DNA from: a virus
Length of the DNA: 28,033 nt
Direction: 5' to 3' (one strand)
Virus record (IMG/VR): IMGVR_UViG_3300021139_001732
Coordinates: 1 to 28,033 of that record
The notes under the pieces: model-generated
What the model saw: the letters and a program-made list of their open reading frames with translations, nothing else
Database searches by the model: none
What the model was told of the DNA's origin: nothing
Part shown: piece after piece, positions 1,038 through 22,635 of the stretch
How positions within the stretch are numbered: position 1 is the first letter of the stretch
Layout of the letters: each line of letters opens with the position of its first letter
Made by a program: the position numbers and the translations under genes

Positions 1038-1484
1038 ATGAAAAGAAATTCTCTGTTAGTTTCGATGGTAATTTTCTTTATAATATTCGGAGCAATATTG
1101 TTCTTTGGAGAAAGACGAGAACTTATTTTAGGTATTCCTAGAATATACTTAAAAGACCCATCATGGGTAAAATCCACAATTTATTACCCTTTCAGGAAGA
1201 AGAAAAATATAACTGCTAGTGGATATAAATTCAAAAGTAAAATTTCAGACACGACTAGAATAATAGCAATTAGTAGGGATTTACAAAAAAAATTCCCGTT
1301 CCATACTAAGGTCCTATTAGTTGGAACGGGAGATGATGATGGTATTTATAAGATTGAGGATTTAATGAATTCCCGCTTTAAAGGTCGTATAGATATACTT
1401 GTAAATGGAACACATAAATTAATAATGTATGATTCTATAAAAATATACGAAATTAAAGAAGAGTATTTTAGATTACAACACTGA
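1038..1484 (+). CDS. Membrane-anchored 3D-domain (double-psi beta-barrel) protein
   Basis: This is a 148-residue protein with one N-terminal transmembrane helix (about residues 5-23) after a short basic start (MKRN), giving a probable N-in, C-out anchor. Residues 58-140 resemble the 3D/RlpA-like double-psi beta-barrel. The visible elements are TASGYKF, then IAISRDLQKKFPFHTKVLLVG, then GIYKIEDLMNSRFKGRIDILV, with Asp at 81, 108 and 119 in the places expected for the three-Asp signature. In known families this fold occurs in MltA-type lytic transglycosylases and Rpf/YabE-like cell-wall proteins, so a periplasmic role in lysis or wall remodelling is plausible. Catalysis is not proven by the motifs. 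Its 3' end overlaps the convergent 794-residue gene by 12 bases. Confidence 0.65.
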   Translation: MKRNSLLVSMVIFFIIFGAILFFGERRELILGIPRIYLKDPSWVKSTIYYPFRKKKNITASGYKFKSKISDTTRIIAISRDLQKKFPFHTKVLLVGTGDDDGIYKIEDLMNSRFKGRIDILVNGTHKLIMYDSIKIYEIKEEYFRLQH

Positions 1485-3857
1485 TGCAAACTTCTTCTGG
1501 AATTCCCTAATCTCATCAGTATTTGTCATTTCATCGCTTAAATCTTTATCTAGATTATGTTTTTTACCTTTATCCCAATATGGACTATGTGCAACAGAAT
1601 AAGCCATTGAAAGTAGTTTCACTTGTTCTGGTGTCCAATTCATTAGCTCCCTGTATAATTGTTTATTTCTACTACCATCACCATAAATATCTTCCACTAA
1701 TTTACTTAAATATGCAGCATACTTTGATGGTAAATTATCATTCTTTATTAGATCTACAATTTTATCCTGTGTTCCATCCTCCCATTTACAAACACCTGCC
1801 TTTAAATCAAATGTTCCCATTTCTTTATCAAATGTTCTCATGACTGCTCCATTCTCAAAGAATCTAGCACCTGTCCCACTAGCAATACAAGTAGCACCAT
1901 CTTTACCATAGTTTTCATTCTTCTGAGCCCCCATCTTAGTTAATTCATCTATTAATTGCTGTATCTTATATCCTTTAATAGCATCATTTTTTATCTTTGC
2001 TACATCCTCCTGTGGAACTTTCTTTAAATTTGCTTGTTTAGAAATATTATTTGCCTGGTCTACATCAATTTTTGTAGCCCTATTCTTTTTTGGATTTCCC
2101 CCTCCTTCTTGCTCCCTGGTACCTAATACAGTTTTAGCAGCCTTCATATCAAATTGTTCTGATACCCTATTAAACATCTCAAAAGAAAACGTTCTTTTTT
2201 CCTGTATTTTACCATCGAAAGAATTAACCTTATCTATAAGTTCTTGTGTTATATCAGATGTATTATCCGTCATTTTAAATCCGGCTTTTAATGCCTTTAC
2301 TATTCTTTCTGTTGTAGGGCCAAATTTACCGTCTCCCTGAAATTTAACAAATTTCTGGAATGTTTGTTCGTTTTTAAATCCATCAAGATTACCAAATTTG
2401 TTGATTACTAAAGATTGGAATTTAGAAACATTTTCATCCTTTACTCCTTTCTTTAATCCAGCCTTTATTGGAGAATCAAGTTTTAAATTGTTTTTAACAT
2501 CACTCCCAGCATCGGTTGTTGTATTTTGTATTGCTTTCCTATTTTGTATTGAATAATTTTCTACTTTTTGTCTGGCATTATTTCCTTGTAAGATTAGATC
2601 AAAAGCTTCTGGGCTCTTACCTTTTATACTATTTTTACTTTCTAGATCATCTAATTCATGATTATATTGGTCTCTAAATTTCTTTTCTAATGAAACATAA
2701 TCCTTTAATTTTGTTTCGTATCTTGTAATCAATCTATTAACACTCTCTATACTTTCAGGATCTTGTGTTTTTAACTGGTCCCTCATAGTTTTAATATCGG
2801 ATGCCAATGCAACAAATTGGTCTTCCATTTTAAAAGACCCAAAATTAGCCTGATTTGGATTAGCAGCACCGATCGCTATTTTATTACGAACTGCATCTAC
2901 TCTACCCATTACATCTTCGCAACCATCTATTAATTCTACAAAAATTCTTCTCTTAATCCGGTCAGTTGCTCTTTCTTTTCCTTCCTTTTGTTTATCCTCT
3001 GCTCTTTGTAAGTCTGATTTTAATTTATCTAACGATTGGTTATCATCCTCACCCAAATCTTCTTGTTCTAATAACATAGCTTCATAAGCATGGAAATTAG
3101 TAAAATCCCCAAATCCCTTGTTAGGGGTCTCTGCTGGCTTTTGTACCTTCTTTGGAGTAGCAGCAGCCATGTTGTTTATGTTCGATTGAAGTACATCTAC
3201 TTGTGGTTTAATATATGCACCAAGATCTGGAATTTCCATTGTTAGTGCATCTGGAAATTTAGATAAAGCATCCTGATACATCTTTAAAGCCTGATCCTTT
3301 GCAGATATAAAATCTCCATAAAATTTAGCATCCTCGTCACCATTAATAACGGATGTAATCGAATCTAACCCAGTAATGATACCTTTTATAAAAGCATCCA
3401 TCGTTTTTGTTCCTGATAAATCAGAAAGGCCTGGTATTTGATTGCTGGAAACAGCTGGGGAATTTACATGGTATGCAGATAGTAGAGTTAATAAGTTACT
3501 TGCTATAACCTTACAAACATATATAATGTCTTTTGGTGCTACTGCTGCAGGTTTAGCTTGATTATTTTGTTCAGGCTTTTGCTCTGGTTGCTTATCATCC
3601 TTTTTTTCAACAGAAGCTTGTCCAGAAGTAGAAGTAGAAGTATTATTTACTGCCCCATTATTAGCCGGAGTTGGCTGTTGTTGTGGTGTTTTTAAAGGAG
3701 TAGCAGGCTTATTCCCTTGAGCCGGCTGTGATGTAGTACCGCTAGCTCCATTATCCTCCGCTTCATTTAATGGTACTAAATGGGTATAGTTTTTAGCTCT
3801 TTCTAAAAGCTTATCAAATGTTGGGTTTGATATATAATCTCTACTTGACCTTATCAT
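1473..3857 (-). CDS. Large virion-like protein with peptidoglycan-binding-like motif and prohead-protease site
   Basis: This 794-residue protein is probably part of the head or its contents. Residues 30-33 read LNE/A, a good match to the L/I-x-E cleavage rule of T4-type prohead proteases, so the first 32 residues are a likely propeptide. A low-complexity linker rich in Pro, Gln, Asn and Thr (about 35-105) follows, then long charged helical stretches. Near the middle, FQGDGKFGPTTERIVKALK resembles the D-G-x-F-G-xx-T core of PG_binding_1 domains. The C-terminal third is helical with many charged residues. It is the last gene of the head block, 14 bases downstream of the 308-residue gene. I do not recognise a family for the whole protein. 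A role as an ejected or internal protein is inferred. Confidence 0.72.
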   Translation of the reverse strand: MIRSSRDYISNPTFDKLLERAKNYTHLVPLNEAEDNGASGTTSQPAQGNKPATPLKTPQQQPTPANNGAVNNTSTSTSGQASVEKKDDKQPEQKPEQNNQAKPAAVAPKDIIYVCKVIASNLLTLLSAYHVNSPAVSSNQIPGLSDLSGTKTMDAFIKGIITGLDSITSVINGDEDAKFYGDFISAKDQALKMYQDALSKFPDALTMEIPDLGAYIKPQVDVLQSNINNMAAATPKKVQKPAETPNKGFGDFTNFHAYEAMLLEQEDLGEDDNQSLDKLKSDLQRAEDKQKEGKERATDRIKRRIFVELIDGCEDVMGRVDAVRNKIAIGAANPNQANFGSFKMEDQFVALASDIKTMRDQLKTQDPESIESVNRLITRYETKLKDYVSLEKKFRDQYNHELDDLESKNSIKGKSPEAFDLILQGNNARQKVENYSIQNRKAIQNTTTDAGSDVKNNLKLDSPIKAGLKKGVKDENVSKFQSLVINKFGNLDGFKNEQTFQKFVKFQGDGKFGPTTERIVKALKAGFKMTDNTSDITQELIDKVNSFDGKIQEKRTFSFEMFNRVSEQFDMKAAKTVLGTREQEGGGNPKKNRATKIDVDQANNISKQANLKKVPQEDVAKIKNDAIKGYKIQQLIDELTKMGAQKNENYGKDGATCIASGTGARFFENGAVMRTFDKEMGTFDLKAGVCKWEDGTQDKIVDLIKNDNLPSKYAAYLSKLVEDIYGDGSRNKQLYRELMNWTPEQVKLLSMAYSVAHSPYWDKGKKHNLDKDLSDEMTNTDEIREFQKKFASVL

Positions 3858-3871
3858 TTTATTATCGTATT

Positions 3872-4798
3872 TTATTTTACCTCTGTTGAATTCACTAAAC
3901 GACCAATATAGTCAACCTTCATTCTCATATAGTTTTTGAAAGCTTCTAATCTATTTTCTGCCGCTTTCTTATTTCTCTCAATCTCTTCTATCTCCACATC
4001 ATAGATTGGTGCATTAGCAGCATATCTATTTTTCTCGGTATTTAGGAATTTCTTTCTTGCATTAAGTTCGCTTATTAATTCCTTGTGTTCGTCTAGGTAT
4101 CTTAATTTAATAGCAAAACCATCATGTTTCCATTTAATAAGTTCTTGCTCTGTTCTTCCTTGTAAGTATTGTATAAAAAATTCCCATTTAAGACAATATG
4201 GTTTTTCTATTTTATATTCACCTATTTCAGATATTTCTTCTAATTCACCATCCTGGTCTGTCTTATTTCCAGTGGCAGGTAAAGTATTTCCTAAAGATTT
4301 TCTAAGATTTTCCATATCCAAAAATTGTGCCTGATAAGTATCTGCATACTGGCCATTATGGTGTCTTTTAGCTACCTTGTAAGCATAATCTGCAATAACC
4401 TTATCTGCATTGGCAGCTTCTTTATTATAGTATTCTGCTAACTTTCTATCTTTTTTTATTATCCTCATTAGATCATCCTGTAAATTAGCAATTTGGCTAT
4501 CCCTTGATTTCTCAAAGGCATCCAATGCTTTTTTACTAATAAGTGCCTTTTGTTTTAACAATGGACTTACTCCGGGGGCTTTTACTTTTTTCCTAGAATC
4601 TAAAGTCTGGGCCATAAAGATATTAAAACTTAGTTCATCTGTTTTGTCTATAAAATCTTTTTCTACCTGTATCATCTTACTGATGATAGTTTTTATTTTA
4701 GACGAACTAGTAGTAAACATAGACTTAATTCCACCAGATATTGTATCCAGTAGATTTTCGTTTATGAATTTTTCATATTTAAGTAATTTTTTCTCCAT
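3872..4798 (-). CDS. Coiled-coil internal head protein candidate with FINE targeting peptide
   Basis: This 308-residue protein is almost entirely helical and charged. The N-terminus carries FINE at residues 11-14, with cleavage predicted after E14. This closely resembles the T4 capsid-targeting sequence MKTYQEFIAE, which directs internal proteins into the prohead and is removed by gp21. Residues 30-60 (SSKIKTIISKMIQVEKDFID) match residues of the upstream 372-residue protein (SKLDTILKKMDETENKFVD), so the two are tandem paralogues. Its start codon lies inside the 3' end of that gene (20-base overlap), which implies translational coupling. It is probably an internal or prohead-core protein. The function is not known from the sequence. 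Confidence 0.72.
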   Translation of the reverse strand: MEKKLLKYEKFINENLLDTISGGIKSMFTTSSSKIKTIISKMIQVEKDFIDKTDELSFNIFMAQTLDSRKKVKAPGVSPLLKQKALISKKALDAFEKSRDSQIANLQDDLMRIIKKDRKLAEYYNKEAANADKVIADYAYKVAKRHHNGQYADTYQAQFLDMENLRKSLGNTLPATGNKTDQDGELEEISEIGEYKIEKPYCLKWEFFIQYLQGRTEQELIKWKHDGFAIKLRYLDEHKELISELNARKKFLNTEKNRYAANAPIYDVEIEEIERNKKAAENRLEAFKNYMRMKVDYIGRLVNSTEVK

Positions 4799-6004: not shown

Positions 6005-7774
6005 TTAAACGATACCAGCAGCTGGCATAGTAACATAGAATGTAAGGTACATAGTTTGTGGGTGATGTCCCGCTTCAACCAATGCATACCTAGATTTTAC
6101 TGCGATTTTTGGTGACATAGTACCTTCAGAAATTGTCTGAATTGATTCTGCCATCATATAAGGCATAAATTTCATACCAGGTTCGTCGTCTCCACCTTTT
6201 CTTCCTACTAATACCCTTGTATCAGAGTATTTCATATTCTGGTCGACATAAACTGTCATACCTGCTATAGCACCTACAGGGTAAAGTGTACCGTTGTTCT
6301 GAGTAAGTGTGTTAGAGAATGGTGCGAATGTGAACTGACTGATGTCCTGTAATGCAGAAGCAATCTGTGAGTTACAAACTACGAAGTTAGCTGGTCCTCT
6401 CCTACCTCTGTTAGCAACTACGTTAGCAGCAGCTAATAGCCTAGAGAATAATCTCCTCTGAACGGTAGACTGGTTTTCGTAACCACCGGTTGCTATTTGG
6501 CCAGGTGTAGAAAGAGTGATAAGAGATTCACCTTTACCGATATAGCTAGCAGTAGAACCACCACCTGCACCAATACCAAGGTTAATGTTCATGTTCTGTC
6601 CTTCTACAGTGTAGAATTCATAGTGATTTGACCAACCAAGTGCAAATGCCCTAGAAAGGATGTGTTTGTTAATAGCCTGAGATACTTCGTTAACAAGAGA
6701 GTTTTCGATCATAGAAACTACGTCAATACCAAACTGCTTGTTAAGATCTTGTATCTGTTCAGTTGTAACACCTGCAGCTATCTGGAATGTACCAGCTTCA
6801 ACGAATTTAGTGAAGGTGTTAAGCGCCATTGATTTGAAGTAGGTAGTTTCACCAACACCTCTAGCCATTGGGTCATAAGCAACTGTACCATCAACGTAAG
6901 GTCCCTGCCAGTTGTTAGTATTTGCAAGACCAGCACCAGTAAATCCTTGAATGTGATCTTCAAGAGCTTTAACAAGAGCTGCTGAACCTGAAGTTGAATC
7001 AACCGGGGTAGCAGAAGTTACTGTTAAAGTTGTTCCAGAATAAGTAGCTGAGTAAATATCAGCAGTACCAGTAGAAGGGATAGCAGTATTAATAGACTGT
7101 CCATTAGTGATACCCTGTACCCTAAATATTGGATAACCATCGATCCTAGAGTTACCTACGAACTGAGCATAAATCACAGCAGTACCCGTTGAAGCAAGGT
7201 TATAAGTAGTTGCTGCAAGACTAACACCAATAGCATAAATTGTGCCTGTTGTTAAGTTAGTTGCAGGGGATGTACTACTAGTAGGAACTTTAATAAGATC
7301 AGGAGCATTAGCTGTATAAGTAGTAGTAGCATCAGAAGATACACCACCAAGCTTACCACCAGCATATACGTAATCTAAATAGCTAAGAACGCCTGTTGGT
7401 CCTTGCATAGGTATAACTGGAACGATGTCGAAACCGACAGTCTTTGCAGCTACCTGAATAGCAAGAGGAAGTAAGGATGGGAATTTATCACCTGATCCAA
7501 GACCTGAACCTGAATAGGAACCGCCAGCATAGAATGCAGCAGGACCACCGGAACCGCCATTAGCAGAACCACCATAAAGGTTACCAGCAGGAGCAACGTT
7601 ACCCATACCGTTCAATACACCTAGGGAGTTATAAGCACCAGCAGACTCGTTTAAGGAGTGGTAGTGGCAATAAGTAGATAACCAGTCTATTTTAGACCTA
7701 TCAGTTATCCCGGTTTTACTTTCGATAATGGGTGCCCATGTATCGTAGATTTCGTGATGATTAATAAGATTCAT
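6005..7774 (-). CDS. 23: Major capsid protein, T4 gp23-like (HK97 fold)
   Basis: This 589-residue protein forms the capsid lattice. Residues 113-128 (VGFDIVPVIPMQGPTG) match the conserved gp23 block around VQPMNSPTG. Later blocks also follow gp23: a helix-rich stretch with VTTEQIQDLNKQFGIDVVSMIENSLVNE, then NFVVCNSQIASALQ, then GMTVYVDQNMKYSDTRVLVGRKG and a C-terminal KSRYALVEAGHHPQ block. LNE/S at 41-44 is a clear prohead-protease site, giving a mature protein of about 546 residues. A Thr/Ser-rich insert (roughly 150-270) has no close counterpart in T4 gp23 (521 residues) and may form the surface insertion domain. The gene follows the protease-scaffold gene by 25 bases and ends just before a strong terminator, consistent with high expression. 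Confidence 0.95.
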   Translation of the reverse strand: MNLINHHEIYDTWAPIIESKTGITDRSKIDWLSTYCHYHSLNESAGAYNSLGVLNGMGNVAPAGNLYGGSANGGSGGPAAFYAGGSYSGSGLGSGDKFPSLLPLAIQVAAKTVGFDIVPVIPMQGPTGVLSYLDYVYAGGKLGGVSSDATTTYTANAPDLIKVPTSSTSPATNLTTGTIYAIGVSLAATTYNLASTGTAVIYAQFVGNSRIDGYPIFRVQGITNGQSINTAIPSTGTADIYSATYSGTTLTVTSATPVDSTSGSAALVKALEDHIQGFTGAGLANTNNWQGPYVDGTVAYDPMARGVGETTYFKSMALNTFTKFVEAGTFQIAAGVTTEQIQDLNKQFGIDVVSMIENSLVNEVSQAINKHILSRAFALGWSNHYEFYTVEGQNMNINLGIGAGGGSTASYIGKGESLITLSTPGQIATGGYENQSTVQRRLFSRLLAAANVVANRGRRGPANFVVCNSQIASALQDISQFTFAPFSNTLTQNNGTLYPVGAIAGMTVYVDQNMKYSDTRVLVGRKGGDDEPGMKFMPYMMAESIQTISEGTMSPKIAVKSRYALVEAGHHPQTMYLTFYVTMPAAGIV

Positions 7775-7799: not shown

Positions 7800-9923
7800 T
7801 TACTTTCTGAACCTAATGTCTAATTGTGCAGCTATGTTGTTGATATAATCAGAACCATAAGCTTTACCATTTTGACCTGAGATTACTTTTTTACTTTCGT
7901 CTAACTGCTGAACATTCTTAGCTGGTACTTTAATTCCCCTTGATTTCCAGAAGTGATTGATTTGGTATGGAGTATCAAGCCTATAAGACGTACTCTGTGC
8001 AATGATTGATGCCTTCTGGCCTTCATTCATTACTTCCCATGCTCCTTTAAATTCCTCTGGCATCATATCAAGAAATTTCTCACCAGACCTTGCCTGCTCT
8101 GTTAGAGCGTTGCCCATGATGTCAATTACTTCTTTTTCGGATGAATAATTGTTCTCATTAAGCGCTTTTGTCACCTTTTGTTTTTCGGCTTCGTTTAGAG
8201 ATAAAAATCCAGTTTTAACGTCGTTATTCACTAACTTTAAGAAACCATATCTTTTCTCATTTATTATCTCATCTGTCTTTTGTTTATTGACAGATTCTAT
8301 TAGACTATCTATTTTAGTAGAAATTCCTTCATAATTTCCAGAGAATCCTGAAACCCTCTTATTTTCGGAAATAGCTTGAGTAATTTCTTTTGTCAAATTT
8401 TTGTTTCCTTTTATGTGGTTCATTGATTCTGCCAATGCTTCTGCATAACCAATATTGTTACCTAATTTTTCTGATAAGTAATCAGAGAACTGAATGCTCT
8501 TGTGTAGGTTTTCTGCAAGATAGTCAGCAAATGCTAGACCCTGATTAACCTTTTCTCCAATGCTTTCAGAATATCTAATACCCCTGTCCAAATTCAATGC
8601 TAAATACTCACCATAAGAAATACTCCTATCTAGATTTTCAGCAAGGTAGTTTTGGTAAGAAATAATCTTGTTCATATTTTCGGTAAGATACTCACCATAT
8701 GTCATACTCTTATCCAAATTCTCTGCAAGATATTCACTATACCTTATATTCTTATCTACATTTTCTGCAATGTATTCTGTGTAAGATACTGCTTGCCTAA
8801 TTTTTTCTTCTAATGTAGCAAATTTAGCAACACTATTATCTACATTTTCTGCAATGTACTCTGCGTAAGAAATATTGTTATCAAGATGCTCAGCCAAATA
8901 TTTAGAATATGCTATTACCTTTTGTATAGTTTCATTCATTTTCCTATTCTCGGTAACTGAACCTTCTAGATGTTCTGAAAGATATTCACTATACTTAATA
9001 GATGCTTCTAAATTTTCAGCAAGATAGTCACAATATTTTTCTAGCTTAGAAATTCTTTCTTCTGAACTCATGCTACTAGTCTTTTCTGTTTTATCAGTTT
9101 TAGCTTTTTCATTAATCTTAACTGGTACCTTAGTAGTCTTCAAAGAAGATAGAGAAGCTTTAAGTGAAGCCATCTCCTTTTGAAGTAATTTGGTATATTC
9201 ATTAAGTTCTTCCGCAGTAACAAAATTTTCCATGCTCGATTGCTTATTTGTAGTATTTTCTTTTTTGGATAGCAATTTTGCTATTTTCTCTTGATCTTTG
9301 ATTCTATATATCCTAATATTAGAATCATTTTTCAATCCAAAATTCTCATTAATAACGGAAAGCCCATTAATAATGGAATCTTTCTTATTTTTTTCATTTA
9401 ATCCAGATCCAAAACTTTCATAAACCCTACCTAATTGAGCTGTTTCAAATCCGGGATCTGCTACTAGGTCATATGTAAATATCCTTTTGATCTCTACTCT
9501 TTTATTAGCACCAACTACACCTGCAGCTCTCGAAGAAATAGAGATCGGTATTCCTGCTTCTACTAAGGATCTAGCAATCTGCCCTGCTGGGGTATCCAAA
9601 AGTTTAACTCTAATTCTAACAGTCCTATCTTCTTTGTTATAAACAAGCTTCTCAATAACATGAGAAAGGTTTTTCAAAGAAACATCAAATTCTTTTGGAT
9701 GATCTAATTCACCACAAAGCCTTCTTTGGTTGATCTTCTCGTTTAAATATTCAAGGTGAGGAAGGTATTCACTTTCCTCATATATCCTTTGATTGGAATT
9801 TTCCTTACCAAAAACTGCAGCAACACCTTCTAAATAGATGTCATTGGAGTTTTGGCTTCTCTCTGTTTTTAAATTAGAAAGAGATCTTTCCAATATTAAA
9901 ACGTAATCCTGGTTTTGGGCCAT
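7800..9923 (-). CDS. Prohead protease (gp21-like) fused to repeat-bearing scaffold domain
   Basis: The 707-residue product appears to join two T4 functions. Residues 1-170 are a gp21-type serine protease. GELDHP at 71-76 carries the catalytic His75, SISSRAAG at 128-135 holds the SSR serine motif, and YDLVADPGF at 151-159 is the conserved closing block. LNE/K at about 175-178, INE/N at 191-194 and INE/K at 270-273 are likely self-cleavage sites between protease and scaffold. Residues 296-505 are fifteen contiguous 14-residue repeats (consensus YxEYLAENLDxSI), a long alpha-helical scaffold. The last 200 residues are charged and resemble a gp22-like core protein tail. In T4, gp21 and gp22 are separate genes directly upstream of gene 23, so position and content both support a fused core protein. 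Confidence 0.88.
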   Translation of the reverse strand: MAQNQDYVLILERSLSNLKTERSQNSNDIYLEGVAAVFGKENSNQRIYEESEYLPHLEYLNEKINQRRLCGELDHPKEFDVSLKNLSHVIEKLVYNKEDRTVRIRVKLLDTPAGQIARSLVEAGIPISISSRAAGVVGANKRVEIKRIFTYDLVADPGFETAQLGRVYESFGSGLNEKNKKDSIINGLSVINENFGLKNDSNIRIYRIKDQEKIAKLLSKKENTTNKQSSMENFVTAEELNEYTKLLQKEMASLKASLSSLKTTKVPVKINEKAKTDKTEKTSSMSSEERISKLEKYCDYLAENLEASIKYSEYLSEHLEGSVTENRKMNETIQKVIAYSKYLAEHLDNNISYAEYIAENVDNSVAKFATLEEKIRQAVSYTEYIAENVDKNIRYSEYLAENLDKSMTYGEYLTENMNKIISYQNYLAENLDRSISYGEYLALNLDRGIRYSESIGEKVNQGLAFADYLAENLHKSIQFSDYLSEKLGNNIGYAEALAESMNHIKGNKNLTKEITQAISENKRVSGFSGNYEGISTKIDSLIESVNKQKTDEIINEKRYGFLKLVNNDVKTGFLSLNEAEKQKVTKALNENNYSSEKEVIDIMGNALTEQARSGEKFLDMMPEEFKGAWEVMNEGQKASIIAQSTSYRLDTPYQINHFWKSRGIKVPAKNVQQLDESKKVISGQNGKAYGSDYINNIAAQLDIRFRK
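8409..9038 (-). repeat. Fifteen tandem 14-residue (42-bp) degenerate repeats in the scaffold domain
   Basis: Residues 296-505 of the protease-scaffold fusion divide into 15 units of exactly 14 residues. Typical units are RYSEYLAENLDKSM and SYQNYLAENLDRSI. Units 3 and 6 keep the length but have lost the YxEYLAE consensus. A 14-residue period equals two heptads, so a continuous coiled-coil rod with no phase breaks is predicted. Confidence 0.9.
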
Positions 9924-9983: not shown

Positions 9984-12167
9984 TTATTTCTCCTCGCCTG
10001 AATTTTTTTTAGCTGCTTGTATTTCTGGCTTAGTGTCACCACCCTCTAATTCACTAGAAGGATTTTCGATTTCTTCTATCTTTTTGGGATCCATGGAAGC
10101 TAAATATTTACCAAAATTATTTTCGTTGCTATCTAATGATTTTGTAGCATCTTCTATTAATGTTTTAGCTTCATCTGCAGAAGTTCCAGTTGGGGTTTCT
10201 TTTCTTTGTTTAAAGTTTGGAAATGCTTTTATGTCTCGAACCATGTTTGTTCCCCAATCATAAGCTTTTACTGATAAATTTCCATCACCGCCTTCTTTAG
10301 TGTATTTGCTTTTTATATAAGACCAAGCAGAAATGGCTTTATTTCCATCTATAGTATATCCTCCCTTAATATAACATAGTGACTGCATAATTGCTAAAAT
10401 ATCATCCCTACTAACAAATCCATCTAGAGAATGTACAAGACCTACTGCTATAACATCACAGAATTTTTTATCTATGAAGCCACCTTTGATATTAATTTTT
10501 ACTGTATTTCTACCTCCAAATAGTTCATGTGGCAAAAAACCAACTATAGCGCTATTAACTAAAAAGTGTGTCATACTCTCGTCATAGTTTATAGGATATG
10601 TACCATCTGCCATTGGTTTAAATCTTTTTATAGATTCATCTGGACCTGCTGGTTTAGCCGGACCTGTTGCACCTGTTGCACCTGCTGTACCAGCAGGTCC
10701 AGTAGGTCCCGTAGAACCCCCATTACCACCAATTGATTTTATTTTGTCTGATACTTTTTTACAAATTAGATCTGCATCACTAATAATTTTTTGGTCCTCT
10801 TCAAATATTTTTTTGCTTTTATCGAAGACTTTACCAAAGTCTTCGAATTTTAGGGTTTCCTCTTTTTTAGATGCTTCTACTTCAAATATTTTAGTAGATA
10901 ATATAGCTTTAACATTTTCCGCAACTTTTACTCCTGTATCAAATTTCATTATACCATTAAACATTTCCTGTGTTAATACAGAGCTAGAAAATTTATCATT
11001 CTTAGTTATTACACTATAGGCAGCATTAGCAACGGTAGAAGTAAATTTACCATACTTACCATCTGCTCCCCCATGTTTCATTAATTGATCCTTAATACAA
11101 GCAATACCCATCAAATGAGATTGCAATTTTTTAACCTCATCACATACATGTAAAGATATAGCAATTGGAAATTTACAATTTCCTGGATTAATGTTAGTTT
11201 GTTTCTGCCCACTATTTTTGTCCATACCAGATGAACCTGTTTTTGGTGTATTAATTGGTGGGGGGGGTGGAATCTTAGTAATTTTTTGTTTAATTGCATT
11301 TAACGCATCCCTTTGCCTCTTAATCTCGTCAATAAGATTTTCACATGAAATTCTAAAATCTCTACCCTTCATTTTACCCCCTGCAGTGTTTATCTTACCT
11401 TTAATAAGAAAACCTTTCCTTTTTCTATCAACCTGAAGTTTTTTTGCATTTGCTAGAAATTCTGCTGCCTTTGATATAATAGATTTCGCTTGTGCATCTC
11501 CTGCAACATTAGGATCTAATAATGGAGCAGTTGTTTCAGAATTAAAAGTAGTAGCCATATCCATTACATGGTTTGCTAATGTTACATACCACTTATTGCT
11601 AGGCGTATCATCTGCATCATCTGCATCAGATCCATCATCTGTGTCATCATCTGTGTCATCATCATTACCACCAGGAGATTTAGAGGTGCCTGTATTTTCT
11701 AAGTATCCGTGGTCTTCTCTTAATAAGGCTTCCTCTACAGCTTTTACTTGTTCAGTCTGAGCATATTTTTGCTTACATGAATTAATTATTTCATCTAATT
11801 TCTTTTTGATGTCTCCAAACTTATTATTAACATCTGGTACCTTCATTAATGTATTAAAAACATTAGCTATATAATCATTAGCAGCCCTTTTAGAATTATC
11901 GTCAGGAAAAGTAACACTTCCAACTATATTGATCATTGATTTCCTTACTTCATCTAAATTATTAGCATTTTGTAAATCCTTAGTAGCTGCATCAAAACCA
12001 GATGAAGTATCATTGTCTAAATTATAAACAACAATAACATTATTCAAATACGTAAATAATTGGGTTACCGCTGCTACGGGATCTACCGTGTTGGTATCTT
12101 CTGCTGGTTTTTGGTCCTGCATCTGTTCGTAGATAAAATTGTAGCCCTTATAAATGTTTTTTGACAT
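9984..12167 (-). CDS. Large virion-like protein with collagen-like segment and targeting peptide
   Basis: This is a 727-residue protein. FIYE at residues 11-14 is in exactly the same place as FINE in the 308-residue protein and matches the T4 capsid-targeting FIAE pattern, so removal of 14 residues and packaging in the head are likely. An Asp-rich run occupies about 167-190. Near 363-385, GADGKYGKFTSTVANAAYSVI resembles the core of a peptidoglycan-binding domain, as in the 794-residue protein. A short collagen-like run with GPTGPAG and GATGATG lies at about 480-510. The C-terminal part is a predicted globular helical domain (for example GLVHSLDGFVSRDDILAIMQ). I do not recognise the family. 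Its place immediately before the protease-scaffold and capsid genes suggests a head protein, but it does not look like the gp20 portal. Confidence 0.7.
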   Translation of the reverse strand: MSKNIYKGYNFIYEQMQDQKPAEDTNTVDPVAAVTQLFTYLNNVIVVYNLDNDTSSGFDAATKDLQNANNLDEVRKSMINIVGSVTFPDDNSKRAANDYIANVFNTLMKVPDVNNKFGDIKKKLDEIINSCKQKYAQTEQVKAVEEALLREDHGYLENTGTSKSPGGNDDDTDDDTDDGSDADDADDTPSNKWYVTLANHVMDMATTFNSETTAPLLDPNVAGDAQAKSIISKAAEFLANAKKLQVDRKRKGFLIKGKINTAGGKMKGRDFRISCENLIDEIKRQRDALNAIKQKITKIPPPPPINTPKTGSSGMDKNSGQKQTNINPGNCKFPIAISLHVCDEVKKLQSHLMGIACIKDQLMKHGGADGKYGKFTSTVANAAYSVITKNDKFSSSVLTQEMFNGIMKFDTGVKVAENVKAILSTKIFEVEASKKEETLKFEDFGKVFDKSKKIFEEDQKIISDADLICKKVSDKIKSIGGNGGSTGPTGPAGTAGATGATGPAKPAGPDESIKRFKPMADGTYPINYDESMTHFLVNSAIVGFLPHELFGGRNTVKINIKGGFIDKKFCDVIAVGLVHSLDGFVSRDDILAIMQSLCYIKGGYTIDGNKAISAWSYIKSKYTKEGGDGNLSVKAYDWGTNMVRDIKAFPNFKQRKETPTGTSADEAKTLIEDATKSLDSNENNFGKYLASMDPKKIEEIENPSSELEGGDTKPEIQAAKKNSGEEK

Positions 12168-14660: not shown

Positions 14661-15374
14661 CTAAAAATTATTAAAATCCTCTTGACTCATATAAGGCCAA
14701 CTAGTAATCCGGCTAATACTAGAAAGATTTGCTACCTTTATTCCCCTTGTCACTAATGCACTTGCTAGTTTCCTGTATTCTTCATTAACTGCATCATATC
14801 TAGTAGTTAATAAATGATTTCCAGTCTTATCGAAGAAATGATCTGGTGTTAAATCAACCCCAATCAATCCGATCTTTGAAGCACCTAGCTGATATGCTAT
14901 TATTACTGCCATATAAGGCGAATTTGTTGTGTAATCAATTTGTCCAATGTTATCTATTCCGGTGCCTTCGCGTGCTCCTAAATCAAAGTAAACAGTTGCT
15001 TCGTGCTTCACTGGACTAAGAGATCTTAAATGTGTAAAAAAATATTCCGATGTATGATTTTGCACCCACTCATATCTTCCTCTTTTGAATGTGTGAGGTT
15101 CATTTACACAAATAAGATATTTGGTTTGGAGTTTTCTATTTATATCATTTACTCCAAAAAGAATACTTTTTTCATCAGGAACAAAAGTATTTATAGAAGT
15201 GCCACATCCACAAATTATAAAGGCTTTATCTTTTTCAGACCCAACCAAACTTTTATATCTTTCTAGATTATTAGATTCCATTTTACTTTTAAATAATGCG
15301 TCAGATTTAATTGGTATCTGCTTTTGCGAAACCTTTGCTGAAACCCCTAATGTTCTTCGGAAACGATTTATCAT
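14661..15374 (-). CDS. DUF115/MptE-like protein, possible glycosyltransferase-related
   Basis: This 237-residue Rossmann-like protein has the signature of the DUF115 / 6-hydroxymethylpterin-pyrophosphokinase MptE-like group, which includes Maf motility accessory factors. A nucleotide-binding loop, FIICGCGTSIN, lies at 52-62. GVNDI follows at 74-78, with the 'cannot-see' strand KYLICVNEP after it. The highly typical C-terminal block NSPYMAVIIAYQLGASKI / GLIGVDLT covers 151-176. Maf proteins attach nonulosonic sugars to Ser/Thr of flagellin, and related phage proteins are often called glycosyltransferases. The two Ser-rich collagen-like fibres encoded just upstream could be substrates (inference). 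The start codon overlaps the stop of the metallopeptidase gene (ATGA), so the two are translationally coupled. Confidence 0.65.
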   Translation of the reverse strand: MINRFRRTLGVSAKVSQKQIPIKSDALFKSKMESNNLERYKSLVGSEKDKAFIICGCGTSINTFVPDEKSILFGVNDINRKLQTKYLICVNEPHTFKRGRYEWVQNHTSEYFFTHLRSLSPVKHEATVYFDLGAREGTGIDNIGQIDYTTNSPYMAVIIAYQLGASKIGLIGVDLTPDHFFDKTGNHLLTTRYDAVNEEYRKLASALVTRGIKVANLSSISRITSWPYMSQEDFNNF

Positions 15375-16279
15375 TTTAAAATACCATCAATAGTTTTTAG
15401 GTTCGCATCCAAGCTCTCCCCATAAGAGCATTTGTGCCTTCCAAGGAAATTCGATACTATTATTTTATAGGGGGAAAGATATCCTTTGTTTCTTAATAAT
15501 CTTGCAGCAACAAGATCACAGATAATTTCTATATTATCTTTTATTGTTTCCTTAATCATATTATGAGCAGACTCATGAGCTTCAATAGTAAGTAAATGGA
15601 CGTCTGTTAATCTTTGAAAATCCGGATTAGTAGCATCTATATAAATAGTTCTTGTTTTACTATCCATATATGCAATCCCCAATTTTTTAAAATTTGGTTG
15701 GTGTATTTCTGAATGAGGATCATCATGAGAAACAACAGAAAGTGTTAATGAATTATCTAATATTCCTTTTCTTGTTGCTTTTTGTCCATTATTGGTTAAT
15801 AAAATATCATTTTTATGTAATTTAGATTCTAATTTACCCCAGACTAATCCTCCGTGGTTATATTTCATATTCAAAGCCATCTTCTCTTTGTTCATATCTA
15901 CTGAAGTAGTAGTTCTACCTGCCCAGAAACCAGATCTTTGAACTAATTCCATTGATGATGGAATAACAGGAAATACTTTATTTGTTTTTTCACTCTTAAC
16001 TTTGAAGTGATATTCAGTAGCATCTTGATTTCTCATCATGGAAATAACTCTTCCCTCTACTGGAGATTCAGAACCAGCTATTTTTGCTTTTACTAAATCA
16101 CCAATAGCAAACTCTTCCCCCTTGATATATTGGGAAGGTATTACATCACGCCCCTTGGATATAGAAAGGTCATCATAAGGTTTATATTGAACCTTAAAAA
16201 CACCATTAGAAGTATTATACCCATCGCCAGAAAAAGACTGGGAGAAATACTGTTGCTCATGTAATCTTTTTATTCTCAT
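15371..16279 (-). CDS. HExxH zinc metallopeptidase-like protein
   Basis: This 302-residue protein carries HESAH at 235-239 in the helix LTIEAHESAHNMIKE, a HExxH zincin motif. A downstream acidic pair is available as third ligand (Glu251 or Asp255 in NIEIICDLVAARLL), the arrangement of gluzincins. Residues 55-95 (GEEFAIGDLVKAKIAG and EGRVISMM) resemble a small SH3-like or KOW-like beta barrel. There is no signal peptide. LHE/Q at residues 6-9 could be cut by the prohead protease, in which case the enzyme would be packaged in the head, a possibility only. Its substrate is unknown. It might mature virion proteins or act on host proteins after entry. It lies 1 base after the UVR gene and overlaps the DUF115-like gene by 4 bases. 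Confidence 0.68.
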   Translation of the reverse strand: MRIKRLHEQQYFSQSFSGDGYNTSNGVFKVQYKPYDDLSISKGRDVIPSQYIKGEEFAIGDLVKAKIAGSESPVEGRVISMMRNQDATEYHFKVKSEKTNKVFPVIPSSMELVQRSGFWAGRTTTSVDMNKEKMALNMKYNHGGLVWGKLESKLHKNDILLTNNGQKATRKGILDNSLTLSVVSHDDPHSEIHQPNFKKLGIAYMDSKTRTIYIDATNPDFQRLTDVHLLTIEAHESAHNMIKETIKDNIEIICDLVAARLLRNKGYLSPYKIIVSNFLGRHKCSYGESLDANLKTIDGILK

Positions 16280-16853: not shown

Positions 16854-19800
16854 TTAGCTAATTACTCTTTTGGAAGATAGAAAGTGCCCATAGAACCAAG
16901 TACCATATCCCTCATTAGTTAGAGCAAGGGGTTCACCAAGCCAACCAAATCCAGACGCCATACTATATGGTACAATATAAACTGTAACTCCCATAACATG
17001 TGTTAGTAATAATGCGTATTGGTCTCTAGTGCTAGCTCTTACGATAGCATTTATTTCCAATGTTATATAGGAACCTGTCCCTGCATTTATCTCTTCCCAA
17101 ATAGTTTTTATAAAATATGGAGAAGATTCAAGATTAACTAAGCTTAATGCTATTGATCCGCTAGTACCCCCATTAGGAATATAAACAGTAACACTAGCTG
17201 ATAATTCCCAAGTATCCCCTCCAACAACTCCAGAAGTGCCAGCAGGAGATAAGTAATCATTAAAATAGTAGCCAGAAGTACTTACCCAAGGATTTGTATC
17301 AGCTCCAAATCCCAAAAATGTTCCATAATCTACTGCAGTATCATATTCCATTAAATTGAATGGTACTATAGTTCCACCAGTTCCACTTGTAGCAGGACAA
17401 CCTTCTGTAGGGATAGTAATTGCTAAACCTGTGGTACCATTTGTTCCGGATAATCTATATTGAAAATTATCTAGACCAGAAGTTCCAGATGATCCAGAAG
17501 TTCCCGAAGTTCCAGGGGCACCATTAGTTCCACTTGAACCAGCAGAACCAGAAGTACCTGTAATTCCAGGAGCTCCATTAGCTCCACTTGAACCCGCAGA
17601 ACCGGAAGTACCCGAAGAACCAGAAGTACCAGCAGAACCAGAAGTACCCGAGATACCGCTAGATCCAGCACTTCCCCTTGATCCAGAGCTTCCGCTTGTT
17701 CCAGTAGCACCATTAACTCCAGAACTACCAGCAGAACCAGATGTGCCTGCTGCACCATTAGCACCAGAACTACCAGATGAACCAGAAGTACCATTTATGC
17801 CACTAGAACCAGTAGAGCCTGATGTACCCGCAGAACCAGCAGAACCATTTGCACCAGAAGAACCAGAAGAACCGGATGTACCAGCAGCACCATTTACACC
17901 AGAACTCCCGGACGAACCTGTTATACCAACAGAACCATTAGCTCCAGAAGAACCAGAAGTACCATTAAAACCACTAGAGCCAGCAGAACCGGATGTACCT
18001 GCTGCACCTATACCACCAGCTGAACCACTAGACCCGCTGGAGCCAAAAGTACCTGCAGCACCACTAGAGCCAGCAGAACCAGCACTTCCAGATATACCAG
18101 CAGCACCATTAGATCCACTAGAACCAGAACTACCAGAGGAACCCGTAGTACCAGAGCTTCCTGCAGAACCAGAAGTTCCATTAGCACCAGATGAACCAGA
18201 AGAACCTGCACTACCATTTGTTCCAGCAGCACCATTGGACCCAGAACTACCTGCAGAACCGGAAATACCAGAACTACCTACAGAACCAGAAATACCAGAA
18301 GTACCGCTAGATCCAGAACTACCAGAGGATCCTGTAATCCCTGAAGACCCTGAAGTACCTTTTGTACCAGAAGTACCCGAAGAACCAGAAGTACCGGCAC
18401 TTCCACTAGATCCAGAAGAACCACTGGTTCCATCAATCCCAGAAGATCCGGAAGAACCTGCAGTTCCAGAAGAACCAGAGGTTCCAAGCCCACTTGAACC
18501 GGAAGAACCAGAAGCCCCATCCGTACCCGAACTACCTGCAGTACCATTACCAGAAGAGCCTGAACTACCTGCAGTAGCATTAGCTCCAGAACTACCAGAG
18601 GAACCTGTAATTCCTGAAGACCCAGCAGATCCAGCAGATCCAGAACTACCTGCAGTACCATTACCCGATGAACCAGAAGAGCCCTTATCACCAGATGAGC
18701 CGGAAGAACCACTAGTACCTGCAGAACCAGATGTACCATTTATACCACTAGAACCCGCAGAACCGGATGTACCATTAGTACCCGAAGAACCAGATGAACC
18801 ATTAACACCACTAGAGCCAGCAGAACCTGATGTACCTGCTGATCCGGCTGAACCATTGCCCCCGCTAGAACCCGCAGACCCTGAAGTACCCCCAGAGCCA
18901 GAACTACCAGAAGAACCACTAATTCCATCATACCCACTAGTACCAGAAGAACCATTACCAGAAGAACCAGATGTACCAGTAGATCCAGAACTTCCAGATG
19001 TACCAGTTGTTCCCGATGATCCAGAAGAACCCCCAGTACCAGATGTTGCAGCACTTGTACCAGCAGATCCGGATGAACCAGAAACACCATTACTAGATCC
19101 GCCAGAACTAACAATTACAAATTGCGTTCCATCATAAGCAAGCATAGTAAATCCTGCCCCAGCAATATCTCCTGGCGCCACATTTCTAAGAAAGCTTGGT
19201 GATGAAGAAGATAGATCTTTAATATTAATTGCACCTAATCCATTTATGTTTAATGTAGAAGCGCCAGTATTAGTATGTGGAAATTGAACTATATAGACTA
19301 TATTTTTACTATATCCAGTTAATTGATTTGGATTTTGAGTATTCGCAGTATAAGTATTAGTTCCACTAGCACTTAAGAATAAAACCCCAGTATTTCTTGC
19401 TCCAATATATTTAAAGAAACTTAATTTTGGTGGGGTAGACGAAGAAACTCCAGAAGGTAATCCTCCATAAAATGTTAATACCCCAGATTGTGTATCTAAT
19501 AGCCAATCATAAGATCCGAAAGGAATAACAGAGCCAGTCTGTGTTGTTAATACGTATCTATAACTAACTCCATCTCCATAATTAAAAGGAATAACATTAT
19601 TTAAATTTGGATGTGTAAATGAATTTGGATATGAAGAGTCTCCATTTAATTGGAGTGCATTATAATATTGAACTAGGCCAGCAACCCCTGCACTACCAGC
19701 AGTAGATGGTATACCTAATTGATCTATCCAAATGTCTGTTGGGGAAATTGATGAATAGGTACCAATTGGCTCCTCATAGAATTGTTTATTTTGATCCCTT

Positions 19801-19862
19801 TCAGCTTGTTTAAATATTAATTTATAAAGCCTACCTGCCTGTTGCGCTGTTGTAAGTGCCAT
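16854..19862 (-). CDS. Giant collagen-like fibre protein (1002 residues)
   Basis: Three parts can be seen. Residues 1-254 form a non-repetitive N-terminal domain that begins MALTTAQQAGRLYKL and probably attaches to the virion. Residues about 255-797 are almost pure Gly-X-Y collagen-like repeats dominated by Gly-Ser-Ser, Gly-Thr-Ser, Gly-Ala-Ser and Gly-Asn-Gly-type triplets, roughly 180 triplets, long enough for a trimeric rod. Residues 798-1002 form a non-repetitive beta-rich C-terminal domain with several aromatic residues (ending GYGTWFYGHFLSSKRVIS), probably the receptor-binding or trimerising head. Pro is rare, unlike classical collagen. There is no signal peptide. It follows the 914-residue fibre gene by 28 bases, with its own late-promoter-like box. 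A tail fibre or head decoration filament fits; which one cannot be told. Confidence 0.82.
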   Translation of the reverse strand: MALTTAQQAGRLYKLIFKQAERDQNKQFYEEPIGTYSSISPTDIWIDQLGIPSTAGSAGVAGLVQYYNALQLNGDSSYPNSFTHPNLNNVIPFNYGDGVSYRYVLTTQTGSVIPFGSYDWLLDTQSGVLTFYGGLPSGVSSSTPPKLSFFKYIGARNTGVLFLSASGTNTYTANTQNPNQLTGYSKNIVYIVQFPHTNTGASTLNINGLGAINIKDLSSSSPSFLRNVAPGDIAGAGFTMLAYDGTQFVIVSSGGSSNGVSGSSGSAGTSAATSGTGGSSGSSGTTGTSGSSGSTGTSGSSGNGSSGTSGYDGISGSSGSSGSGGTSGSAGSSGGNGSAGSAGTSGSAGSSGVNGSSGSSGTNGTSGSAGSSGINGTSGSAGTSGSSGSSGDKGSSGSSGNGTAGSSGSAGSAGSSGITGSSGSSGANATAGSSGSSGNGTAGSSGTDGASGSSGSSGLGTSGSSGTAGSSGSSGIDGTSGSSGSSGSAGTSGSSGTSGTKGTSGSSGITGSSGSSGSSGTSGISGSVGSSGISGSAGSSGSNGAAGTNGSAGSSGSSGANGTSGSAGSSGTTGSSGSSGSSGSNGAAGISGSAGSAGSSGAAGTFGSSGSSGSAGGIGAAGTSGSAGSSGFNGTSGSSGANGSVGITGSSGSSGVNGAAGTSGSSGSSGANGSAGSAGTSGSTGSSGINGTSGSSGSSGANGAAGTSGSAGSSGVNGATGTSGSSGSRGSAGSSGISGTSGSAGTSGSSGTSGSAGSSGANGAPGITGTSGSAGSSGTNGAPGTSGTSGSSGTSGLDNFQYRLSGTNGTTGLAITIPTEGCPATSGTGGTIVPFNLMEYDTAVDYGTFLGFGADTNPWVSTSGYYFNDYLSPAGTSGVVGGDTWELSASVTVYIPNGGTSGSIALSLVNLESSPYFIKTIWEEINAGTGSYITLEINAIVRASTRDQYALLLTHVMGVTVYIVPYSMASGFGWLGEPLALTNEGYGTWFYGHFLSSKRVIS
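17471..19100 (-). repeat. Collagen-like triplet-repeat region of the 1002-residue fibre gene
   Basis: About 1.6 kb encodes Gly-X-Y triplets. The nucleotide sequence is repetitive (GGT/GGA Gly codons with varied Ser, Thr and Ala codons) but synonymous codons are mixed, so exact long direct repeats are few. The bias leaves open frames on the opposite strand. Confidence 0.92.
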
Positions 19863-19890: not shown

Positions 19891-22635
19891 TTATCTGAGT
19901 ATTACACTTACTGATTTAAATTTTTTATCCGAGTCTAAAGGAAGTCCAACCCTAAGCCAGAAAATTCCACTATGTGTTATATTACCAAAAGTAAAATCTT
20001 TCACTGATGCGGTTGTTGGCGTTCCTGGTATCATTGCGAAGTCTCCATTAGATTCCGGATCAGTACCAGTTAACCAAGGATTATTGCAATCAATCCAACC
20101 AGTAGTTGTAGGACCAGGGGAATGTATATCATCGACTTTAGCAAATATCTTCAGACCAGAAGTAACATATGTTATTGGATCTGCAGACCAGGTACCCAGA
20201 ATGTTATTTATTGTTATTATACCACCAGAAATACCATTCTGTGGGCCAAATTGAAATAATACCCATCTATAAAGTCCTCCATTAGTTTCGGATGAATAAT
20301 CAGGGCCTACTGCTGGATAGTTAGTGTTATAATTGGTTCCACTTAATCTCTGATAGTAGCCATTTAACATTTGTAGCTCATAAGTATATGATGCTGCTAC
20401 TAATGATTGTGTTGGATCAAATGTTTCCCCATAGACAGTAGGCGCATTTCCATCAGTTCCACCTGATAAGAACCTTAATGATTCATCCGATATAGTATCT
20501 GCCCTCATAGTTTTACCAGCAAAGGAATTACTTATACTAATGTTTGAATTAATGCTGCTCCCTTTTGCATTATATCCAGTTGCATTTACTACTATATCTT
20601 CATTATAAATATTGTTTCGAATTGTACCTTGTGCAGTTATACCAGATAATGTTCCTGGAGATTGGGAGCCAGCTACAGAGGACCCAAAAGAGCTCATTAA
20701 AACTTCAGTTGTACTAGCAACAACAAGAGGCTTTGTTAAATAAAACTTAGAAACTGCGTTTCCTATAGCAACGGTAGCAGTAACAATATTAGTATCTAAT
20801 AATGATGGTACCCCTGAAATCCATTTTGCTGTTCCAGTAGATCCATTTGTAGAAAATGCCTTAGATGAAAATGTGGGACTTAATGGATTATCATACCAGA
20901 ATAATGTTGACAAATTAGTTCCCCCTGAAACCCAAGAAAGCTCTGCTGTATGAGACCCATAACTAGCACCAGTCATAAAGCTGGTAATTTCTGCTAATAA
21001 TGCTGGCCAAAATCCTGCTTTACCAGGTATACCATTCCAATAATCATACTCGGTAACAGTTAAAGATCCATTGGTTGTAACTCCTGGATTTATCGAATTG
21101 TCTAAATAAGTTATAGAACCTAAATTTGTAGAATCTCTAAATGCAGTAAGAATCTTTTGTGGCTCCTTTGCAAATCCCCCACCAGAGGTCCAAGCAGAGG
21201 TTGACATATTTTCAAGTACTACGTTAGTACTTGAAGAATCTGTAATTATTGTATTTGATGTCGCTGCACCACTAGAACTTAAATTAATTGCTAATCCGCT
21301 AGATCCAGCAAAAGATGGATAATATGATAAAGGATTGGAATAATAACTATCAAGATATAAAGGGGGTTCACTACTTAATAATGGCGCTGATGTCGGGGCA
21401 AGTAATTTTATTACCCTATCTAGGTCTTCAAATGCCTGACCTGATAAGTAGGTATTAGACCATGAAGCAAAAAATCCACTACTCCAAGCATATCCAGTAG
21501 TACTTGAATCCCCTAATTTAATATCAAAACTTGATAAAGATCCCAAAGAAGGGGAAGTACCAGAGGATCCGGAAGTTCCTGCAGTTCCTACACCCCCACT
21601 GCTTCCTGACGTTCCATCATTACCATTGAATCCCCTTGGTCCTATTCCTCCATCTTGCCCACTGCTTCCAGCAGAGCCGCTAATACCAGAAGATCCATTA
21701 ATACCAGAAGATCCAGAGGATCCATTAATACCACTACTTCCATTAATACCACTACTTCCACTAGTTCCAACAGATCCATTAATACCAGATGAACCAGAGG
21801 ATCCACCAGCAGGACCAGTGGGTCCTGCTGCTCCACCAGTCCCAAAAGTAACCCACTCTTTAATGCCATTAATACCACCTGACATTGTCCCGGATGTAAT
21901 GTTTGTAGATATTGTTCCGGTGATAGCCATTACAGCAGAGTTTAATGTAACTGCTAGTCCAGAAAGAGAACTTATTGTAATTACTCCACTAGAATATGAA
22001 GCGGTAACATAAATATTACCACTGGTTACAATCGAATTAACTAAACTTAATGAGGTTGTTACTGTATCACTTGTCCAAGTAGAAGTTCCTATTGTTATTC
22101 CATTTATTTTAACCGTAATTGTTTGACTACTGCTACCACCAGTAATTATAAAAGAAAAAGTTGAGGGTATTTCACCTTGAATAATATAACCCTGGAAATT
22201 TGGGCCGGTAAATCTAAAATCCCCTAATTTTGGTGGTTTAGTAGTGTCTGAATTACGATCCGTATACAATCTTACTCTACCACCCTTACCATTCGCCCCT
22301 ACATAAACGTCATTACCACTGTAAATATCATTGTTTGTAGATATACCAGAGCAAGTTATATTGCCATTAGAACCATTAAAAATAATTGTAGCTGCCCCTG
22401 TATTATTAGGGTTGCCTATATTAGGAAGATAAATTTTATCGGCAGAAACTTGCCCGACAAAGATTTTAGTCGCCGGGTTGGCGATTGTATTATTTTGGAT
22501 CTGCAGTCCAAATGTAGATTGTAATAATAAAATAGAGGCCTGAACCTGTGCAAAATTCTGATTTATTATCAGAGTATTTGTGGAGGTGTTATTGGATAGA
22601 AGGTCCTTTATTGTTAAATCGGTTAGTTCTTTCAT
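19891..22635 (-). CDS. Collagen-like fibre or baseplate-associated virion protein (914 residues)
   Basis: The N-terminal part (1-140) starts MKELTDLTIKDLLSNNTSTN and continues with coiled-coil-like NQNFAQVQASILLLQ, then beta-rich segments with GADK-like loops, as in phage fibre proteins that carry an N-terminal shaft-binding region. Residues about 140-265 are beta-rich with Thr/Ser. Residues about 266-361 hold a short collagen-like Gly-X-Y run (GPTGPAGGSSGSSGING). Residues 362-914 are a large beta-rich C-terminal part with many Ser, Thr, Tyr and Gly, such as RLSGTNYNTNYPAVGP. The RLSGTN motif is shared with the 1002-residue fibre. There is no signal peptide. It is the first gene of the fibre unit. 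A role in adsorption is likely; the exact virion location is unknown. Confidence 0.78.
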   Translation of the reverse strand: MKELTDLTIKDLLSNNTSTNTLIINQNFAQVQASILLLQSTFGLQIQNNTIANPATKIFVGQVSADKIYLPNIGNPNNTGAATIIFNGSNGNITCSGISTNNDIYSGNDVYVGANGKGGRVRLYTDRNSDTTKPPKLGDFRFTGPNFQGYIIQGEIPSTFSFIITGGSSSQTITVKINGITIGTSTWTSDTVTTSLSLVNSIVTSGNIYVTASYSSGVITISSLSGLAVTLNSAVMAITGTISTNITSGTMSGGINGIKEWVTFGTGGAAGPTGPAGGSSGSSGINGSVGTSGSSGINGSSGINGSSGSSGINGSSGISGSAGSSGQDGGIGPRGFNGNDGTSGSSGGVGTAGTSGSSGTSPSLGSLSSFDIKLGDSSTTGYAWSSGFFASWSNTYLSGQAFEDLDRVIKLLAPTSAPLLSSEPPLYLDSYYSNPLSYYPSFAGSSGLAINLSSSGAATSNTIITDSSSTNVVLENMSTSAWTSGGGFAKEPQKILTAFRDSTNLGSITYLDNSINPGVTTNGSLTVTEYDYWNGIPGKAGFWPALLAEITSFMTGASYGSHTAELSWVSGGTNLSTLFWYDNPLSPTFSSKAFSTNGSTGTAKWISGVPSLLDTNIVTATVAIGNAVSKFYLTKPLVVASTTEVLMSSFGSSVAGSQSPGTLSGITAQGTIRNNIYNEDIVVNATGYNAKGSSINSNISISNSFAGKTMRADTISDESLRFLSGGTDGNAPTVYGETFDPTQSLVAASYTYELQMLNGYYQRLSGTNYNTNYPAVGPDYSSETNGGLYRWVLFQFGPQNGISGGIITINNILGTWSADPITYVTSGLKIFAKVDDIHSPGPTTTGWIDCNNPWLTGTDPESNGDFAMIPGTPTTASVKDFTFGNITHSGIFWLRVGLPLDSDKKFKSVSVILR
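21552..21838 (-). repeat. Collagen-like triplet-repeat region of the 914-residue gene
   Basis: About 95 residues of Gly-X-Y triplets (GPTGPAGG, then GSSGING units). The triplet vocabulary overlaps that of the larger neighbouring fibre. Confidence 0.88.

Follow-up and report, generated by a model that had tools for sequence, protein, structure and literature searches.

The window analysed here is the whole 28,033-nucleotide stretch of viral DNA (IMG/VR record IMGVR_UViG_3300021139_001732). On its minus strand, positions 7800-9923 encode a protein in which a prohead protease, a linker in which LNE and INE sites occur, an array of short repeats and a C-terminal domain follow one another in that order. 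The features of this gene and of its downstream neighbor are as follows.

7800-9923, minus strand: fused prohead protease-scaffold, 707 aa, one uninterrupted frame with an ATG start
9414-9923, minus strand: Peptidase S77 (T4 gp21-type) protease domain, residues 1-170 (Pfam, PHROG, PDB and alignment)
9345-9401, minus strand: candidate release sites LNE/K (175-177) and INE/N (191-193) (N192-E193 conservation and site list)
9231-9249, minus strand: candidate internal start at Met231 (ATG at 9231-9233) with AAATAA (9244-9249) (conserved Met and motif)
8406-9035, minus strand: repeat array, residues 297-506, fifteen units of 14 residues (unit profile, register analysis and helix model)
7803-8321, minus strand: C-terminal domain, residues 535-707, common to the PTm1 and Lak fusions
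6005-7774, minus strand: major capsid protein (gp23 family), directly downstream of the fusion (Pfam PF07068)
7646-7654, minus strand: predicted capsid-protein maturation site LNE/S, after residue 43 (conserved in neighboring capsid proteins)

The original prediction had placed the protease and a helical repeat domain in the same frame, and the window indeed holds a single 707-aa ORF for both. The scaffold portion is predicted to be helical, lies between the protease domain and the capsid gene, and is rich in protease-type sites. The gp23-type capsid protein was recognized through its PF07068 match (E 6e-39).

Residues 1-170 are a T4 gp21-type prohead protease of the Peptidase S77 family. They match PF03420 with 34.3 bits, against a curated cut-off of 27, and PHROG 207 with an E value of 6e-34; a profile search matched them to PDB 5jbl (E 2.7e-4), and the modelled domain recovered the same gp21 fold (Foldseek E 5e-9, target TM 0.69-0.71), with herpesvirus proteases as weak fold matches. 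The motifs on which the assignment had first been made are all present, with GELDHP around H75, SISSR containing S130 and YDLVADPGF containing D152/D156. H75, S130 and D152 are invariant in 33 relatives and align with H85, S140 and a downstream Asp of T4 gp21; by this alignment, D152 is the putative catalytic Asp. Sites of the type cut by such enzymes follow the domain, with LNE ending at residue 177 and INE at residues 193 and 272. The idea that the protease is released just past its domain holds up as a candidate, since an NE site is conserved there (N192-E193, invariant in 33 sequences). In T4, gp21 cuts after L/I-x-E and gp22 is reduced to small peptides (PMC9026906, PMC9958956).

Two viral-contig scans and a phage collection yielded 85 homologues, 38 of which remained after dereplication. 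Protease and scaffold lie in one closed frame in all 38, which excludes a sequencing error, and a frameshift merging two genes was likewise ruled out. The fusion with a long helical repeat scaffold is kept in every relative. In 36 of them the array holds its phase, mostly with 9-14 clear units and with up to 14-15 in the clade of the window. The relatives include LR756502, LR745206, LR756504 and LR756501 (634, 636, 642 and 735 kb), matching in length the four largest complete phage genomes in a 2020 survey that placed the largest genomes in the Mahaphage clade, with Bacteroidetes as predicted hosts. The original prediction had set the fusion against the separate genes 21 and 22 of T4, implying that it is unusual. 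This was not borne out. Genes are separate in PA5oct, Erwinia phage Hallingskeid, cyanophage S-MS29 and T4, whereas long fused proteins are found in Tenacibaculum phage PTm1, where the product is already annotated as “prohead core scaffolding protein and protease,” in the Lak phages and in Flavobacterium phage MaF61. Because the fusion is widespread in the group and annotated in PTm1, the new element is the array, which is absent from the Lak phages and PTm1 even though both carry the fusion and the C-terminal domain. No paper on the array or on fused gp21-gp22 proteins was found in the literature searched, and the text of the giant-phage survey makes no mention of any protease or scaffold protein. 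The organization of fusion plus array is real, conserved and, within that literature, previously unremarked. Two relatives depart from the regular pattern: the array of the 462-kb genome LR756500 (L008) is similarly long but eroded, with about one-third of the in-register units lacking the L/I-x-E motif, and that of L086 is short and phase-shifted. These eroded or phase-shifted arrays could reveal which unit positions are dispensable.

The window array comprises fifteen units of 14 residues, 210 residues with zero insertions; its best phase is 297-506, and the 296-505 proposed earlier differs by choice of phase only. The consensus is Y-S-E-Y-L-A-E-N-L-D-K-N-I-S, and 13 of the 15 units have [LI]-x-E at positions 5-7; one unit reads LAL instead. 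Both tyrosines are gone from units 325-338 and 367-380, and partial degeneration is seen in 451-464 and 493-506, leaving about 11 of the 15 clear by sequence. A unit-trained profile scored at most 3.3 in shuffled proteins, and most real units scored 12-41 in a similar six-protein scan made with a different profile, so that the two ranges can be compared only roughly. At the DNA level, a tandem-repeat finder sees only 2.2 copies, and the units have diverged to pS = 0.68 and pN = 0.43. These values indicate an old repeat maintained by protein-level selection, and a recent DNA tandem duplication was rejected as its origin. AlphaFold drew a continuous helix through the region, with modest confidence in the best model: the full-length protein gave a single helix at residues 286-502 (pLDDT about 40), and the best fragment model a single helix at 287-502 with pLDDT about 65-85 across most of the array, the other four fragment models scoring 31-41. 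At 1.5 Å per residue, helix 286-502 would measure about 32 nm if straight.

The original prediction passed over the protease's own motif, which recurs in nearly every unit and is, we think, the more telling feature. The unit register was set from eleven other columns and columns 5-7 were then inspected. Among 412 units from 38 proteins, Glu-7 is kept in 411, and its entropy of 0.02 bits is below that of every other column of the 14; [LI]xE is present in 91.5% of the units, and 99.8% have hydrophobic-x-E. E3, the second glutamate of the unit, occurs in 78% and in no case forms L/I-x-E. All six in-array units lacking both tyrosines, four of which are one homologous unit, keep [LIM]xE. On a 3.5-residue wheel E7 falls on the side opposite to the hydrophobic residues, and packing of the core therefore offers no simple explanation for its conservation. 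Relative to shuffled expectation, [LI]xE is enriched 2.5-fold in the arrays and 2.8-fold in T4 gp22, which is a known substrate; the background, taken from 147 further proteins encoded at these loci, has a median of 1.19 and a 95th percentile of 1.94. The range for T4 gp22, cyanophage gp22 and the candidate scaffolds of PA5oct and Hallingskeid is 2.1-3.2-fold. The protease domain itself also exceeds background (1.87-fold), which makes region-wide density a weak test, and it was replaced by the position-specific one.

Other proteins of these loci show related sites. The capsid proteins encoded next to the fusion in relatives have [LIM]-x-E/[SN] at about residue 43. Within the first 60 residues of the proteins of these loci, [LIF]NE is several times as frequent as farther along the chain, a distribution that would suit propeptides; both patterns are expected if the protease recognizes [LI]-x-E. 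The P1' residue in the array is Asn in 71%. The P2 residue is Ala in the array (LAE) and Asn in the propeptide and junction sites (LNE/INE), so the array sites may be weaker or may not be sites. Complete cutting at [LI]xE of window residues 231-507 would, by computation, give pieces between 12 and 31 residues long, of which ten have exactly 14.

We favor, as somewhat probable, a model where the scaffold array is a regularly spaced self-cleavage ladder that would be cut into peptides by the protease fused to it. Counting against this model are the Ala at P2 of the array, the missing motif in about one-third of the LR756500 units, the LAL unit of the window and the above-background [LI]xE of the protease domain. 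A purely structural rod is an unlikely alternative: the 14-residue period would represent two coiled-coil heptads, E7 would be kept for helix-helix or scaffold-capsid contacts, and the rod would be removed through the LNE/INE sites flanking it. Such a rod would account for the indel-free phase in 36 of 38 relatives, the strong conservation of Y1, Y4, A6 and I13 as well, the array P2 being Ala and not Asn, and the continuous predicted helix, but it fits poorly with an E7 that is conserved beyond every core position, outlasts Y1/Y4 in degenerate units and lies away from the hydrophobic stripe, or with the same L/I-x-E excess in unordered T4-type scaffolds. The array had also been proposed as a molecular ruler, the number of units setting the size of the core and hence of the capsid. 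Copy number does vary between related phages, as had been anticipated, and in whole units, and the array is present in all four of the largest genomes of the 2020 survey. However, the 735-kb genome has 11 clear units and those of 634-642 kb have 9-10, the 462-kb LR756500 has an array of similar length, if eroded, the ~540-kb Lak phages have none, the clade of the window attains 14-15, and close relatives (protease domains 90-92% identical) differ by 0-2 units. Copy number therefore does not track genome size in the few cases where size is known, a comparison of genomes and not of capsids, and the ruler is weakened to the point of being very improbable.

A separate question is whether every scaffold copy carries a protease. 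A Met preceding the scaffold is conserved in 37 of the 38 relatives, at a varying distance from the conserved VT motif that follows. In the window, AAATAA stands at -16 of this Met (Met231). The scaffold Met is preceded by it in 27 of 37 relatives, whereas among the remaining internal Mets of these genes 2 of 362 are; its codon phase differs between the two main clades. The hexamer is found 9-22 bases upstream in 26% of gene starts, compared with 2.1% for internal Mets; its mode is at -15. A Shine-Dalgarno sequence was uninformative as a test of the internal start, since only 3% of the true starts of these phages have one. AAATAA was chosen after looking and the relatives represent few independent lineages, which makes the evidence for an internal start suggestive only. 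An internal start of the Met231 type would probably yield protease-free scaffold, as in herpesvirus UL26/UL26.5. If instead there is no separate scaffold product, each scaffold copy would carry a protease and Met231 would be a mere linker residue. We give this a sizeable minority chance: by a general start profile the context of the scaffold Met falls short of genuine starts, ranking between the 46th and 98th percentiles of internal Mets, and 10 of the 37 relatives lack AAATAA, set against the contrast with other internal Mets, the two codon phases and the proportions in T4, where about 580 copies of the scaffold accompany 55-100 of the protease (PMC9958956). Across the loci, AAATAA lies about 15 bases before the start of a quarter of the genes, in place of a Shine-Dalgarno sequence, and could serve in ribosome binding or as part of a late promoter.

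The self-cleavage model would work as follows. The gene product, a T4-type prohead protease joined to the head core (scaffold) protein, would contribute a long rod, built of helical 14-residue units and measuring about 32 nm if the helix is straight, which may self-associate and in which nearly each unit would offer one L/I-x-E site at a constant repeat position. The internal start at Met231 would probably supply surplus protease-free scaffold. Once the shell is closed, the protease would free itself at the [LI]NE sites past its domain and then cut the rod into mostly 14-residue pieces of about 1.6 kDa, which would exit the prohead and make space for DNA. The full combination, with each unit both a coiled-coil block and a protease site, a fused protease, a nested scaffold-only product and a metric rod cut into equal peptides, in the group with the largest known phage genomes, is one that we propose tentatively, at a little under even chances.

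Compared with T4, the protein shares a homologous protease with aligned catalytic residues, the order protease-scaffold-capsid and a scaffold rich in L/I-x-E; an internal start is likewise annotated in T4 gene 21, at a different place from Met231. T4 differs in having two genes, irregular site spacing and no tandem repeat. The PTm1 and Lak proteins are one-frame fusions with a homologous protease and, by profile, a homologous C-terminal domain (535-707), but they have no 14-residue array: PTm1 has only a few loose repeats with LSE/ITE-type sites, and the Lak proteins an acidic linker. The C-terminal profile gave no significant match to T4 and cyanophage gp22, and the domain was rejected as a diverged gp22. 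Herpesvirus UL26/UL26.5 and lambda C/Nu3 also combine a protease-scaffold fusion with scaffold made alone from an in-frame internal start, although they have few release sites, not arranged as a ladder along a repeat rod, and lambda C belongs to an unrelated protease family. The likeness to the UL26/UL26.5 type lies in the nested scaffold-only start, which in this gene is predicted.

The organization bears on how phages of 500-735 kb build and empty very large heads; even the core structure of T4 is unresolved (PMC9958956). With one candidate cut in each of its regular units, the array leads to a simple testable core model with fixed axial spacing, predictable peptide products, and builder and remover in one gene. 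The array could also serve as a sequence tag for finding the scaffold in metagenomic giant phages.

Several other genes of the window may belong to the head or tail. Three minus-strand products have N-termini ending in protease-like sites: 3872-4798 (MEKKLLKYEKFINE/N), 1473-3857 (...HLVPLNE/A) and 15371-16279 (MRIKRLHE/QQ, where relatives read KLNE/QF). Judging from these termini, they are candidate capsid-targeted internal head proteins, like the T4 IP proteins and Alt. Upstream of the fusion, a 727-aa protein (9984-12167, minus strand) has a short collagen-like segment (481-511), [LI]xE at 1.9 times expectation and no family match elsewhere; it may be another core or head protein. Two large proteins (16854-19862 and 19891-22635, both minus strand) with long GSSG-rich, collagen-like low-complexity stretches are probably tail fibers.
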